From contig JAOZOH010000012.1 of assembly GCA_029933365.1 (NCBI GenBank), forward strand, positions 1-38,218: a stretch of DNA of 38,218 nt. Reading direction: 5' to 3'. Below are positions 3,091 to 20,667 of this stretch, one piece after another. The notes beneath the pieces were generated by a model. The model worked only from the letters and a program-made list of their open reading frames with translations. It searched no databases and was not told the origin of the DNA. How positions within the stretch are numbered: position 1 is the first letter of the stretch; every line of letters begins with the position of its first letter. Position numbers and translations under genes: made by a program. The stretch comes from Desulfuromusa sp. (GTDB lineage: Bacteria > Desulfobacterota > Desulfuromonadia > Desulfuromonadales > Geopsychrobacteraceae).

Positions 3091-5205
3091 ATGAATATAG
3101 AACCGGTCAACTTTAGCGGTGTTTTTGATATTGACGAGCTGAAAAACCTTCTCGATGATTTCTCTGACATATGCGGATTTCCCATTGACCTGATTGACGT
3201 TGCCTCAAATGAATTTTTGCTGAGAGCTGGCGAACGTGATATCTGTGCTGAATTTCATCTTGCCTGTCCAGAATCTGCTGCACATTGTAAAAAAAGTAAC
3301 AAAGAAATAATGATGGGGTTAAAGCAGAGTGGTGAAATTCGTTTTGACCATTGCAGTAATGGCCTTGTTTATGCGTGTACACCGTTCATTATCCAAGGGC
3401 AACACCTCGCCAACCTGTTCACGGGAAAGGTTTTCCTCTCTCCACCCGATCTGGAACAGTTTAAATCTCAAGCGCAGAGATATGGTTACGACACGCAGCG
3501 TTATCTGGAAAAACTGGCCAGAGTCCCAATTGTTGACGAAGAACGCATTTCAACAGTTCTACGACACCTGTCAAAAAGAATAGAATTCATTGTACAAAAA
3601 AATTGGCGGCTGAAACAGAAGGAAGGAAATCTCTCGTTAGCACTAGAAGCCGCCGATATCGGCCTGTGGGACTGGGATATACAAACGAACGATGTTGTTT
3701 TTAGCGATACATATTTCACCATGCTGGGATATGAACCCGGTTCTTTTCCACAGACCTTTGCGACCTGGAAAAAACTTATTCATCCTGAAGATCTGCAAAA
3801 ATCAGTCTGTATCCTTGAATTAGCCTTATCTACACCTGACCCAAGCTGGGTTATGGAATTTCGTATGCTATCGGCAGCGGGAGAATACCGCTGGGTTTTG
3901 GGTCAAGGCAAAGTTGTTGAGTTTGCTCTGGATGGGGCTCCTCTTCGAACTTCGGGAATCCATCAGGACATCACACAGCGAAAACGTGATCAACAAAATC
4001 TTCTGGATGAAGAACAGAAATATCGGGATCTATTCGACAACATGGGCAGCGGTGTCGCTATCTATACAGTTGTTGAAGGTGGAAATCATTTTATTATCAA
4101 CGATTTAAATAATGTCGCTCTAAAATCAACCGGGGTTACACTTGAGAAAGCCCTTGGAAAAGACGTTTCTCAAATTTTTCCGGGTGTAGAGTCCCTTGGA
4201 CTGCTTGCTGCTTTTAGACGTGTAAACAAAACCGGCATAGCAGAATCACTCCCGGTATCACAATATCAGGACAAAACTCTTAATTTGTGGGCAGATACCT
4301 ACATTTATAAACTTCCATCAGAAAAAATCGCGGTTATTTTCAATGATATTACGGAGAAAAGACTCGCAGAAGAGGCTCTGATAAAAAAGCAGCTGCAGCT
4401 TGAGCAACTAATCAACCTGGCGACAGATGCATTTTTCTTAGGTGACCATGAAGGGAAAATCGTCACCGTAAATCAGCATGCACTAGAGTTAAGCGGTTAT
4501 TCCCGTAATGAACTTCTTGGTCAAAGTCTCTCTTTTCTGTTTTCAGAACAACAGCAGAAAGAAACACCTCTGGACTACTCCGCTCTTAAAAAGGGAGGGG
4601 TTATTATGGCAGAGAGAGCCCTTTTGCATAAAAACGGCACAACCATCCCGATTGAAATGCATAGCAAAATGATGCCAGACGGAATGTTTCAAAGTTTTTT
4701 CCGCGACATATCAACGCACAAACAATCACAAAATATCTTGATGAAAAACCAAGCTGATCTGAAAAAAAAAGGGGCGCAACTTGAAGAAACAAACACCGCC
4801 CTCAAGGTTCTGGTGAAACAATCTGAGCAAAATAAAATAGAATTCGAAGAAACCGTTGCCGCCAATATTTTGAGTCTTGTCGACCCTCACCTGAACAAAC
4901 TCAAAAAAACTGAACTCAATAAAGATCAGGCCTACCACATACAAATCATTGAATCAACTCTGGATAATCTTGTTTCCCCTTTTGTCCGAACATCTATGGT
5001 CATGGGTCTGAAGTTAAGCCCTGCCGAGGTTCAGGTTGCAAATTTGATAAAACAAGGAAAAACATCAAAGCAAATAGCCAAACAGCTGGGGCTTTCACCT
5101 CAAACAATCGATAAACAACGCAGTCACATCAGAAAGAAAATTGGTATTACAAATAAGAAAATAAGCCTTATAGATCTTCTGACCTCAAATGAATTTGGAA
5201 ATTAG
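3091..5205 (+). CDS. PocR-PAS-PAS-PAS-LuxR-type HTH transcriptional regulator
   Basis: This is a 704-residue soluble protein with no membrane segment. Residues 5-170 match the PocR sensory domain, including the cysteine-bearing CPESAAHCKKS and HCSNGLVYACTPF stretches. Three PAS domains follow: about 181-300 (GLWDWDI...HPEDL...YRWVLGQG...GIHQDIT), about 311-425 (ending FNDITEKR) and about 437-540 (SGYSRNELLGQ...FFRDIS). A charged coiled-coil-like linker leads to a LuxR-type helix-turn-helix at about 643-700 (LSPAEVQVANLIKQGKTSKQIA, then LSPQTIDKQRSHIRKK). It is probably a one-component regulator that couples a small ligand in the PocR pocket, and possibly redox or haem sensing in the PAS domains, to DNA binding. 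No transmitter kinase domain is present. A weak promoter-like pair (TTGTGT at 2977, TATGGT at 3000, 17 nt apart) lies upstream. The target genes are unknown. Confidence 0.88.
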   Translation: MNIEPVNFSGVFDIDELKNLLDDFSDICGFPIDLIDVASNEFLLRAGERDICAEFHLACPESAAHCKKSNKEIMMGLKQSGEIRFDHCSNGLVYACTPFIIQGQHLANLFTGKVFLSPPDLEQFKSQAQRYGYDTQRYLEKLARVPIVDEERISTVLRHLSKRIEFIVQKNWRLKQKEGNLSLALEAADIGLWDWDIQTNDVVFSDTYFTMLGYEPGSFPQTFATWKKLIHPEDLQKSVCILELALSTPDPSWVMEFRMLSAAGEYRWVLGQGKVVEFALDGAPLRTSGIHQDITQRKRDQQNLLDEEQKYRDLFDNMGSGVAIYTVVEGGNHFIINDLNNVALKSTGVTLEKALGKDVSQIFPGVESLGLLAAFRRVNKTGIAESLPVSQYQDKTLNLWADTYIYKLPSEKIAVIFNDITEKRLAEEALIKKQLQLEQLINLATDAFFLGDHEGKIVTVNQHALELSGYSRNELLGQSLSFLFSEQQQKETPLDYSALKKGGVIMAERALLHKNGTTIPIEMHSKMMPDGMFQSFFRDISTHKQSQNILMKNQADLKKKGAQLEETNTALKVLVKQSEQNKIEFEETVAANILSLVDPHLNKLKKTELNKDQAYHIQIIESTLDNLVSPFVRTSMVMGLKLSPAEVQVANLIKQGKTSKQIAKQLGLSPQTIDKQRSHIRKKIGITNKKISLIDLLTSNEFGN

Positions 5206-5254
5206 AAGCGCATGATCTGAAAATTACCAAGCTGCGAGAGGGGGTAGCAGCAGC

Positions 5255-5282
5255 AAAAAAAAGACCGCTCATTCAAGCGGCC
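5255..5282 (-). terminator. Rho-independent terminator after the selenoprotein gene
   Basis: On the minus-strand RNA an 8-bp stem (GGCCGCUU pairing with GAGCGGUC, with G-U wobbles) closes a GAAU loop and is followed by eight U. The plus-strand transcript would carry an A-C mismatch and no U tract, so it serves leftward transcription. It begins 12 nt after the stop codon at 5295. Confidence 0.85.
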
Positions 5283-5294
5283 TCAGTTCAAATT

Positions 5295-5462
5295 TCATTT
5301 TTCTTCACTGGCTCCAGAATTTCCCAAGTCAGTTTTTTGCTTTCCGTCACGCGGAAGCTCACAAGCCCCCGACATTCATGTTTGGATTCCCATTTTTGGT
5401 AGAATCCAGCGATTCAGAGCGTACCAGACAACAACAATTCCCAGCAAATAAAACAAATCCAT
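5295..5462 (-). CDS. Small membrane-anchored selenoprotein (UGA-decoded), U-x4-C motif
   Basis: A 55-residue protein is predicted if the in-frame TGA at 5376-5378 is read as selenocysteine (residue 29). Residues 3-21 form one hydrophobic helix (LFYLLGIVVVWYALNRWIL). Next comes PKMGIQT, then Sec, then MSGAC, giving a U-x4-C pair, and a charged tail ending ASEEK. Four things support a real gene. There is a strong ribosome site (AAGGAG, 7 nt before ATG 5462). The frame stays open through the TGA to a second TGA at 5295-5297. A SECIS-like hairpin follows the first TGA. An intrinsic terminator follows directly. It lies 86 nt after a CpxA-like kinase gene. I believe short proteins with a T-(C/U)-x-S-G-x-C motif occur in related bacteria, but could not check this. 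A thiol/selenol redox role at the membrane is inference only. Automated annotation would stop at 28 residues or skip it. Confidence 0.8.
5339..5358 (-). promoter_or_regulatory. Bacterial SECIS-like hairpin
   Basis: On the minus strand GCTTCCG (5358-5352) pairs with CGGAAAGC (5346-5339), giving seven pairs with one bulged A at 5343. The loop is CGUGA (5351-5347). The loop begins 24 nt after the UGA codon, in the range expected for SelB-dependent bacterial SECIS elements, and it contains the G-U expected in the apical loop. The hairpin lies within the coding sequence, as bacterial SECIS elements do. Confidence 0.72.
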
Positions 5463-5491
5463 GCGACTTCTCCTTCTTGATTTATCGAGAT

Positions 5492-5521
5492 ATCATAACC
5501 TAAAAGAAGAAAACCGGACAA
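5492..5521 (-). promoter_or_regulatory. Sigma70-like promoter for the selenoprotein gene
   Basis: Reading leftward, TTGTCC (5521-5516), an 18-nt spacer and TATGAT (5497-5492) precede the ribosome site and start codon at 5462. This suggests the small gene can be transcribed independently of the kinase gene upstream. Confidence 0.45.
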
Positions 5522-5548
5522 CCCCTTAAAATACCGATTGAAATATTC

Positions 5549-6922
5549 CTATTTTTTATTCGGCAAAGTGATTTCTATCAGCAATCCACCTGTGGGAAGA
5601 TTGCGCGCCAGGACTGTTCCAGAATGCAACTTGGCAGCCCGTTCAGCAATCGCCAACCCAATCCCGGTACCGCCACTTTGACGATCCCGCGCATCAGCCA
5701 CCCGATAAAAAGGCTCAAACAGCCTTGCTAGTGCTTCATCGGGCACCCCCGAACCTTGATCAGCAACCCGAATCATCAAATTTTCTGCACCAGCAACTAA
5801 TTCAACCGACACAACACTATTATCAGCTGTATATTTTACCGCATTACGGATCACATTTTCCAATGCCTGTGCAAGCAACTCCTTTGAACCATAATAAATG
5901 ACGGTTTCTGGAGCATTATAAACAACTTTGCACTGGCGGGTCTCCGCCTCATAGTTGGCATCTTCTACCAGATTGGCTAGGAGATTTCGCAAATCGAATG
6001 TTTGGAATGGCACATCACTGACTCCACTTTCCAAGCGGGTCAGATTAAGCAGTTGGCCAATCATGACATTCATCCGCTCTGCTTCTAATTCAATCCGCGC
6101 CAGTGCCTTGTTCTTTGCAACCGGGTCTTCCTGTTGCCGAACCAGCTCCAACGCAATCACCATCCGAGCTAAAGGGGAACGTAGCTCATGGGAGATATCT
6201 CGCAATAGATTTTTCTGTGCACTTACCAGATCCTCAATTTCCCCGGCCATTTCATCAAAATCGTGTGCCAGTCCGGCCAACTCATTCTTCCCCCGCACCT
6301 GATCACCAATCCGGGTCGAAAGGTCACCATCGGCAAATTTTCGGGTCGCCCGACGCAAACGACCAATCGGGGCGGTCAGAGAGCGAGCCAGGACATAACA
6401 AACGACAGCTGTTATTGCTAACAGAATCAGTAACCGCCAACCTAGAAACCCGTGTGTGACCCCCTTAAACAGATCCTTGGATGGTGGCCGCTCAGGCAAA
6501 CTGATGGCAACAAAATAAGTCTCTCCTGACGCCCCCCGAACAGCACTGGCCAATCCGTTACGAGCTCCCATCCTAGGGAAAACAACTTCACCCGTCTGCA
6601 TCGCTCGTTGTGCCATGTGCTGCATCCGGCGCGGCACTCTTCGGTTCGTCAGCGGCCGACCATGGTTATCGAATAACAACAGATGGATTCCCGACTTTTC
6701 CAATAAGCGGTTGGCAAACTTGTCGACGTCCTCAATCCCCTCATGCTCAAAAGCTCTAATTGCTTCTCGCCCGTATTCTGCAACTGCTTGCCGGGCAAAA
6801 TCCTGATGTGCCAGAGGGGGGAACTCCTGATCTCGAAAGTAGGTCAGAATAATCACTGCTGTTGAAACCAGCAGGATAATCAACAGAAAATAGAGAAATA
6901 TCTTTAGAAACAAACTGCGCAT
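5549..6922 (-). CDS. cpxA: CpxA-like envelope-stress sensor histidine kinase
   Basis: 457 residues. A membrane helix at about 5-27, a periplasmic domain to about 165 and a second helix (WRLLILLAITAVVCYVLA) lead into a HAMP segment. The dimerisation/phosphoacceptor motif is DISHELRSPLARM, with the histidine near residue 243. The ATP-binding domain shows the N box (NVIRNAVKYT), DQGSGVPDE and GGTGIGLAIAERA. The H-box, HAMP wording and gene order match CpxA of proteobacteria. The start codon overlaps the regulator stop by one base (TGATG), indicating translational coupling. A chaperone like CpxP, the usual partner that damps this kinase, is encoded divergently beyond the regulator. It should sense misfolded envelope proteins; the true stimulus in this organism is unknown. 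Confidence 0.88.
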   Translation of the reverse strand: MRSLFLKIFLYFLLIILLVSTAVIILTYFRDQEFPPLAHQDFARQAVAEYGREAIRAFEHEGIEDVDKFANRLLEKSGIHLLLFDNHGRPLTNRRVPRRMQHMAQRAMQTGEVVFPRMGARNGLASAVRGASGETYFVAISLPERPPSKDLFKGVTHGFLGWRLLILLAITAVVCYVLARSLTAPIGRLRRATRKFADGDLSTRIGDQVRGKNELAGLAHDFDEMAGEIEDLVSAQKNLLRDISHELRSPLARMVIALELVRQQEDPVAKNKALARIELEAERMNVMIGQLLNLTRLESGVSDVPFQTFDLRNLLANLVEDANYEAETRQCKVVYNAPETVIYYGSKELLAQALENVIRNAVKYTADNSVVSVELVAGAENLMIRVADQGSGVPDEALARLFEPFYRVADARDRQSGGTGIGLAIAERAAKLHSGTVLARNLPTGGLLIEITLPNKK

Positions 6923-7632
6923 CAGGACTGACTTTCTGGCAAGGAGTAGAGATAACCGACGCTACGGATAGTTTTGATTCGTTCGGTATTCCCCTCATAA
7001 TGACCAAGTTTTTTGCGTAAAGCACTGACATGCACATCAATACTGCGATCATAAGCTGAGAGTCGACGACCGAGGACTTTTCCCACCAGATCGTCCCGAC
7101 TGATCACCTCTCCAGCTCTGGCTAACAAGACCTCCAGCAGATTAAATTCAACAGAAGTCAATTCAATATTTTCATCCGCGCGTTTAACCGTGCGATTGGT
7201 TTTACAAAGAACCACGTCGCCGACTTTCAGCTCGATTGGTTCGCCATCAACTGGTTGCTGAGTTCCTGCTGCTTCTGTCCGACGTTGAATCGCCCGGATA
7301 CGTGCGACAAGTTCGCGCGGATTAAATGGTTTCGGCAGATAGTCATCAGCTCCCAGTTCCAACCCGACAATCCGATCAATATCATCCCCCCGGGCGGTCA
7401 ACATAATGACCGGCACCTTGCTGTGTTCGCGGATCTTTCTCAGGACATCAAAACCGTTCAGTTCCGGTAACATCACATCCAGAACCACCAGCACATATTC
7501 TTCAACCACTGCTTGCTCAGCACCCTGTTTACCATTATTGACCGCCTCAACAGCAAAACCTTCCCCGCCAAGATAATCACTCAACAATTCACAGAGTTCT
7601 ATGTCGTCATCTATCACCAGGATTCGATTCAT
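6922..7632 (-). CDS. cpxR: CpxR-like OmpR-family response regulator
   Basis: 236 residues. The receiver domain (1-120) has DDDIELCE near the start, phosphoacceptor aspartate in LVVLDVMLPELNG, the switch threonine in VIMLTARGDDID and the conserved lysine in LPKPFNPRE. A winged-helix DNA-binding domain (about 130-232) has ELTSVEFNLLEVLL, the recognition-helix region RSIDVHVSALRKKL and the wing IKTIRSVGYLY. It forms the kinase's partner in a two-gene unit read leftward. Two sites matching the enterobacterial CpxR box lie in the 205-nt divergent region upstream, so it probably controls both its own operon and the chaperone gene. The start at 7632 has a ribosome site (GAGGAGTTACA) just upstream. 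Confidence 0.9.
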   Translation of the reverse strand: MNRILVIDDDIELCELLSDYLGGEGFAVEAVNNGKQGAEQAVVEEYVLVVLDVMLPELNGFDVLRKIREHSKVPVIMLTARGDDIDRIVGLELGADDYLPKPFNPRELVARIRAIQRRTEAAGTQQPVDGEPIELKVGDVVLCKTNRTVKRADENIELTSVEFNLLEVLLARAGEVISRDDLVGKVLGRRLSAYDRSIDVHVSALRKKLGHYEGNTERIKTIRSVGYLYSLPESQS

Positions 7633-20510: not shown

Positions 20511-20560
20511 TAAAATAAAGAGAATTTCTTTCTGATTTGTCTGAGGAGTATCTATTTTAT

Positions 20561-20632
20561 ATGCCAAACTTGTCGAAAGGCGGGGACGGAAAGCCACGGG
20601 TCTTGTCAAAATCAAAAAGACAGCCGGGTTGC
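20561..20632 (+). promoter_or_regulatory. c-di-GMP-I (GEMM-I) riboswitch aptamer
   Basis: The conserved GEMM blocks occur in order. AUGCCAAAC leads into a stem capped by the GAAA tetraloop (CUUGUC-GAAA-GGCGGG). GGGACGGAAAGCC follows, then the receptor helix CACGGGUCU...AGACAGCCGGG, then UUGC. By hand alignment to the Vc2 aptamer, the ligand-contacting G20 is G, favouring c-di-GMP over cGAMP (which prefers A). The adjacent G21-C46 pair appears swapped to C-G, a compensatory change. The 3' part of the aptamer also forms the 5' arm of a terminator. Assignment is by recognition; no covariance-model search was run. Confidence 0.85.
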
Positions 20633-20667
20633 TTTTTTTTCATGAGCAACTTGACTGTCTTTTTTTG
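20614..20667 (+). terminator. Riboswitch expression platform: intrinsic terminator
   Basis: AAAGACAG (20616-20623) pairs with CTGTCTTT (20655-20662), and GTTGCT (20628-20633) pairs with AGCAAC (20645-20650), with a CCGG/TTGA internal loop and a T-run to 20666. The 5' arm reuses the aptamer's AGACAGCCGGGUUGC segment. Ligand-bound aptamer and terminator are therefore mutually exclusive, predicting that c-di-GMP turns the downstream gene ON. Confidence 0.85.

Follow-up and report, generated by a model that had tools for sequence, protein, structure and literature searches.

The question raised by this locus is whether a short reading frame interrupted by TGA encodes a selenoprotein and, if it does, what so small a protein would do for its host. 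The window analyzed here is a whole stretch of 38,218 nt from Desulfuromusa sp. (contig JAOZOH010000012.1). An initial annotation, which gave no strand, had described at 5295..5462 a 55-residue frame open through an in-frame TGA and closed by a second stop. The frame was found on the minus strand (5462-5295), where reading through the TGA as Sec29 yields a single-helix protein, MDLFYLLGIVVVWYALNRWILPKMGIQTUMSGACELPRDGKQKTDLGNSGASEEK; the plus-strand frame at the same positions was closed. The features of the region are collected in Table 1.

Table 1. Features of the selenoprotein locus and its neighbors, in window coordinates
Feature	Positions	Strand	Basis
Predicted selenoprotein gene	5295..5462	-	55 codons with one in-frame TGA; stop TGA 5297-5295; architecture common to 149 loci including the window
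Putative Sec29 codon, TGA	5376..5378	-	TGA at 149/149 loci; Cys at the site in 30 of 120 listed database proteins
Codon for Cys34, presumed to pair with Sec29 (U-x4-C)	5361..5363	-	Cys at U+5 in 126/147 genes
Predicted membrane helix, residues 2-23	5394..5459	-	AlphaFold2; hydrophobic stretch by eye in listed members
Shine-Dalgarno sequence AAGGAG	5470..5475	-	7 nt before ATG; unchanged in 12/13 loci of the window's type
Promoter-like pair TTGTCC (5521-5516) / TATGAT (5497-5492)	5492..5521	-	Scan not above chance; recurs by eye
Intrinsic terminator (stem 5284-5261, T-run to 5255)	5255..5284	-	Scan and by-eye recurrence in relatives
SECIS candidate GCUUCCG-CGUGA-CGG(A)AAGC	5339..5358	-	Stem of 7 pairs with a single bulge; loop (5351-5347) starts 24 nt past UGA
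CpxA-like histidine kinase, upstream neighbor at 13 loci only	5549..6922	-	HAMP, HisKA and HATPase over Pfam cut-offs; best NCBIfam model CpxA, below cut-off (303.9 vs 800)
CpxR-like response regulator	6922..7632	-	Best NCBIfam model CpxR, below cut-off (225.5 vs 341)

Thirteen loci, grouped by sequence and neighbors, form the window's own type (the window, L001-L010, L034 and L037); several are titled Desulfuromusa or Desulfuromonadaceae, and L002 and L007 Deltaproteobacteria only. Although titled Chloroflexi, L009 has a selenoprotein almost the same as the one in the Desulfuromonadaceae locus L010; the record is probably mislabelled or misbinned. The strong ribosome site of the initial annotation was confirmed, and L037, with AAGGGAGG, is the sole exception to AAGGAG within the type. 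The promoter-like pair and the terminator reported with it are present and recurrent, although the scans alone did not exceed chance (three promoter-like pairs in 4600-6200 vs 2.5 expected; one terminator vs 1.7 expected). Both elements draw their support from recurring at matching positions across this group: by eye, a similarly placed TTG...TA...T pair was seen in all 13, and a terminator hairpin with a T-rich tail at most 60 nt past the stop in 12. Rfam gave no match at the selenoprotein site; at a loose threshold there were seven sub-threshold matches, none of them a SECIS, six overlapping the terminator and the seventh (rli48) lying upstream of and over the start of the selenoprotein gene. 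Elsewhere in the window, a c-di-GMP-I-GGC riboswitch at 20554-20637 on the plus strand scored over its gathering score (62.2 vs 59).

Relatives of the protein were searched among 5.8 billion proteins, and 242 matches were obtained at E <= 10. Among the 120 listed of these 242, 84 terminate immediately ahead of the TGA; at the site itself, 30 have Cys, five Trp and one Gly. Public 29-residue 'hypothetical proteins', for example P0093 and P0096 of Desulfoluna, illustrate how ORF callers drop the gene, as had been foreseen. The Trp proteins (P0002, P0008, P0024, P0036 and P0056) probably represent a TGA read by the gene caller under another genetic code. Cys-rich tails were present in the Cys forms P0014, P0019 and P0026. 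At the nucleotide level, the family comprises 149 distinct loci with 150 genes, window included and repeats removed, and every locus carries the in-frame TGA. Homologues with Cys or Sec at residue 29, which had been set beforehand as one test of the selenoprotein claim, were found in both forms.

The loci come from Desulfobacterota, Spirochaetota and Verrucomicrobiota, and also from Obscuribacterales; carriers under strain names are Desulfuromusa kysingii and three Desulfoluna species, and no relative was found on viral contigs. A one-genome-per-species scan yielded 31 loci with the in-frame TGA in all 31 (one residue further on in L024). Desulfobacterota, the phylum to which Desulfuromusa kysingii belongs, were sampled evenly, and 121 of the 297 genomes, about two fifths, gave a match (E <= 0.001), three of them already among the carriers of the 31 loci. 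TGA was present in all 111 loci retrieved from the 121; the ten left out were weak matches (G032, G054, G135, G141, G235, G243, G245, G300, G306 and G319), and in five of these the aligned stretch ends before the Sec site. The other samples were sparser: 9 of 100 Spirochaetota genomes, centre genome included; 1 of 194 Cyanobacteriota genomes, the centre genome alone; and 3 of 240 Verrucomicrobiota genomes, namely the centre, the weak L046 (with TGA) and the likewise weak L047. The last of these (E 9e-5) has TGC instead of TGA; it was considered doubtful and dropped from the family.

Statistics were calculated on 147 genes, excluding L024, L083 and L130, where the motif parser was mis-anchored; L024 and L130 have S-G-U in place of T-U. 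The proteins are 40-75 residues long (median 51), and the conserved stretch reads W-I-L-P-K-x-G-I-x-T-U-x4-C, in which P (-7), G (-4) and U are fully conserved by construction because they served as anchors. Thr directly precedes Sec in 94%. The proposed U-x4-C motif held up across the family (Table 1); any Cys at U+2 to U+9 was found in 141 of the 147, the remaining six being L031, L046, L147, L151, L153 and L154. In L031 (1246-1401, Verrucomicrobiales), which lacks Cys at U+5, the frame passes a second in-frame TGA (MSSGGGU...) and runs to TAG, and this protein possibly holds two Sec. In a comparison of eight closely related genes, the 12 codons past the UGA showed 142 substitutions, 101 of them at codon position 3.

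RNA structure downstream of the UGA was assessed by comparing the folding energy of 42-nt windows with synonymous shuffles in the 147 genes. Excess stability peaked at -3.2 to -3.3 kcal/mol (se 0.18) in windows starting 0 to +12 nt past the UGA; it shrank to -2.3 for windows at -6 and to -1.7 at +18, and vanished at +24 (84 genes) and +30 (63 genes). A second dip of about -1 kcal/mol was observed 30-48 nt upstream of the Sec codon. The bacterial SECIS is defined by a G in the first two loop positions and a loop 16-37 nt after the UGA (PMC13188914, review text). A slightly wider criterion, requiring a stem of 5 pairs or more, a loop 14-37 nt past the UGA and a G in its first two positions, was passed by 124 of 147 genes, compared with 347 of 735 shuffles. 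The window itself fails on its own minimum-free-energy fold, as do L002, L003, L005 and L008. The hairpin described 17 nt past the TGA was nevertheless placed correctly: its stem begins there, and all 13 loci of the window's type keep the CGUGA loop at +24, L037 and L004 showing compensatory changes in the stem. In the window itself, the minimum-free-energy fold favors a different hairpin at +12.

Covariation was measured on 35 distinct sequences (42 genes) selected for a best hairpin with a 3-nt loop at +23. The seven-pair stem was paired in 97.1% of cells, a value raised by choosing the sequences for a hairpin at that place, and showed 69 two-sided changes. Covariation reached 0.806 vs 0.258 in shuffles (0 of 500 as high) and at most 0.22 for slid partners. 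Two of the five measures were weak: pairs with a two-sided change (6 vs 5.5 in shuffles, 275 of 500 as high) and further pair types (8 of 500 shuffles). For the family, a SECIS hairpin directly downstream of the UGA is supported by these comparisons.

If the UGA were instead a true stop, the product would be a 28-residue membrane peptide and the remainder decayed coding sequence. Public gene calls do end at the UGA in 84 of the 120 listed proteins, and the best conserved part of the family precedes it. Decayed sequence, however, is at odds with the 30 listed Cys forms that continue past the site, with Cys at U+5 in 126/147 genes, with the third-position bias (101/142) and with the co-varying SECIS stem, and we regard a true stop as extremely improbable. 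Three results place the observation in the window beyond chance: the TGA at all 149 loci, the homologues with Cys, and the SECIS statistics of the whole family. These comparisons bear out the selenoprotein claim of the initial annotation, and the gene almost certainly encodes a selenoprotein in which UGA29 is read as Sec.

The selenocysteine machinery was searched for in the carriers. Over cut-off in the 31 carrier genomes were selA in 27, selB in 27 and tRNA-Sec in 25, and G015 was the sole carrier with none of the three; in the close relatives G001-G006, the counts were 6/6, 6/6 and 5/6. In Spirochaetota, selA was present in 9/9 carriers and in 27/100 genomes overall (p = 2.5e-6 with kinship uncorrected; p = 9e-6 without the centre genome). 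In Desulfobacterota, selA was found in 116/121 carriers vs 153/176 non-carriers (p = 0.009), leaving five carriers without it; the association is weak because selA is so common in this sample (269/297).

The description of the gene as unannotated was upheld. The window's protein had no match in Pfam or NCBIfam (libraries as of June 2026); 30 Sec members searched against NCBIfam release 20 reached unrelated families at a best E of 0.03, and no match of 10 Cys members exceeded its cut-off in NCBIfam or Pfam. Table 1 of a 2026 review lists 119 bacterial selenoprotein families, including families from Haft and Tolstoy 2025 and from Haft and Gwadz 2023 with NCBIfam accessions, and judged by name, domain and motif none of the 119 fits (PMC13188914). 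Excerpts of PMC12013277 and PMC5029168 name no similar protein. Among the literature titles and abstract openings listed, none mentions such a family; supplementary tables, outside this scope, may hold an earlier mention. The 149 loci would thus make up a widespread, previously unnamed selenoprotein family that is apparently undescribed. Like known bacterial selenoproteins, it combines a UGA for Sec and a downstream hairpin with Sec/Cys homologues and, as is often seen, a second thiol nearby; compared by description, none of the 119 known families combines a single membrane helix, a length of about 50 residues and T-U-x4-C.

AlphaFold2 predicted a helix at residues 2-23 (mean pLDDT 88 for residues 1-10 and 83 for 11-20) followed by a disordered tail of low confidence (overall mean 65), and a PDB sequence search returned a single match at E 1.9. 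In the 147 genes, the four residues after Met contain 109 acidic vs 50 basic residues, and the stretch from U-11 to U+3 contains 319 basic vs 44 acidic. By the positive-inside rule, the basic-rich flank of a membrane helix lies on the cytoplasmic side. This charge bias therefore predicts an outside N-terminus and a cytoplasmic C-terminus bearing Sec and Cys. Eukaryotic selenoproteins K and S likewise span the membrane once and expose a reactive Sec to the cytosol in a flexible tail. The likeness is by description, and they differ from the present family in a Sec near the C-terminus and in eukaryotic insertion.

Companion genes were counted within about 1.1 kb at the 149 loci, five of which have under 300 nt available on one side. 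At least one recurring companion was found at 65 loci and none at 84, and no neighbor was universal. The initial annotation had placed the gene next to a Cpx-like system and had suggested a role perhaps tied to envelope stress. The adjacency is real in the window, where the cpxA-like gene adjoins, but it was seen at only 13 of the 149 loci, every one of the window's type (gap 50-89 nt; in L001 only the end of cpxA). A role as dedicated Cpx envelope-stress accessory would fit the position directly downstream of cpxA in 13/13 loci of this type; cpxA was not found at the other 136 loci, however, so that linkage throughout the family is absent, the selenoprotein gene has its own recurring promoter-like site and terminator, and the predicted cytoplasmic position of Sec speaks against a periplasmic envelope sensor. 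The specific Cpx role found no support and is judged very unlikely, and the Cpx link is local to the window's type.

The commonest neighbor is an FmdB-family zinc ribbon, found at 33 of the 149 loci, always on the same strand and within 300 nt, 18 times upstream and 15 times downstream. Its profile gave 34 matches, one of them elsewhere, and the three neighbors tested were all over the TIGR02605 cut-off. FmdB is a separate neighboring protein, distinct from the selenoprotein; selenoprotein forms of FmdB are themselves listed in the review table (PMC13188914). Seedless clustering of small ORFs within 1.1 kb also ranked FmdB first, with 27 loci. Neighbor analyses blind to such short genes, with ORFs of at least 70-80 residues, gave no FmdB cluster or one of four loci only.

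Thioredoxin was found at nine loci and CcdA at nine (five on the same strand, four convergent on the opposite strand), with either one at 15 of 149; ArsR was found at eight and lies directly upstream of the selenoprotein in L107, L132, L138 and L142. Pfam identities of these three were checked on examples. Comparison of ORFs within 1.5 kb and beyond gave thioredoxin in 9/621 vs 0/952, CcdA 7 vs 1 and ArsR 10 vs 1, distance tests that are biased upward because the thioredoxin, CcdA, ArsR and FmdB profiles were built from near members. The same four loci (L107, L132, L138 and L142) share a cluster of ArsR, selenoprotein, in some a small Cys protein, FmdB and thioredoxin, with CcdA next in L132, L138 and L142. 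At L092 (6167-6367) and seven other loci, a small Cys-containing protein (CHKFD...CPRPEDYCEFREKC type) directly follows the selenoprotein; the one tested had no Pfam or NCBIfam match. ArsR, thioredoxin and CcdA make up a set of the SoxR-SoxW-SoxV type (PMC10451225, in part), and these three gene kinds adjoin the selenoprotein in L132, L138 and L142; here, in contrast, FmdB and the selenoprotein belong to the cluster, and the L107 thioredoxin is without a signal peptide by eye. Nine loci show another arrangement, in which the selenoprotein gene overlaps at its end with the start of an ECF sigma gene, and a small zf-HC2 anti-sigma gene comes next (Pfam check of two sigma and three anti-sigma proteins). 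The only NCBIfam match of the anti-sigma proteins was RsrA, below cut-off (27-29 vs 62.5; two tested). In gene content, the pair resembles ECF sigma and zinc anti-sigma pairs of the SigR-RsrA type.

Metal-related genes were also seen at certain loci. ArsR/SmtB regulators over an NCBIfam metalloregulator cut-off stand beside the selenoprotein in L107, L139, L142 and L055. L139 (6646-8534) holds the row FmdB, selenoprotein, ArsR, HgcA and HgcB, the last two over NCBIfam cut-offs. L022, titled Melainabacteria, has two selenoprotein gene copies, between which lie two ArsR-like genes and an ArsI/CadI-family gene, the latter over cut-off. Together with the extra Cys in the tails of P0014, P0019 and P0026, these genes favor soft-metal or metalloid binding, in which Sec and Cys would take up As, Hg, Cd or Cu on the cytoplasmic side of the membrane or pass them on. 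This is the strongest rival explanation, yet an unlikely one: metal genes were identified at L139 and L022 only, in a family-by-family scan of a limited set of loci, the largest neighbor clusters are of non-metal genes, and ArsR-type regulators sense reactive sulfur too (PMC10451225, in part).

The best overall explanation, to which we assign a probability of roughly 0.6, is that the protein is a membrane-tethered selenoprotein serving as a selenol/thiol redox relay or switch, wired to lineage-specific regulators. UGA29 would be decoded as Sec through the SECIS hairpin directly downstream, giving a protein with its N-terminus outside, one helix, the T-U-x4-C stretch at the cytoplasmic face and a charged tail. 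Sec29 and Cys34 may form a reversible selenenylsulfide at the inner face of the membrane, for which thioredoxin, in some operons fed by CcdA, would be the likely reductant. The thiol/selenol redox role is, on the whole, probable. Different lineages would wire the protein to different regulators, namely the FmdB zinc ribbon, ArsR, an ECF sigma factor with a zinc anti-sigma factor, or CpxAR; the recurrence of regulators as neighbors suggests that the Sec29/Cys34 state is sensed, and this coupling is proposed tentatively. Somewhat more doubtful is a general plug-in Sec-x4-Cys switch that would read the thiol state at the inner face and pass it to whichever of these regulators the lineage has.

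If this reading is true, a selenoprotein family of about two fifths of the sampled Desulfobacterota genomes has escaped annotation owing to its short length and to a Sec codon that is read as a stop. Selenium users would gain a membrane-bound redox element not in the published table of families (PMC13188914), and a very small natural selenoprotein would be on offer for study. A systematic re-examination of truncated short ORFs in genomes that decode Sec would then also be worthwhile.
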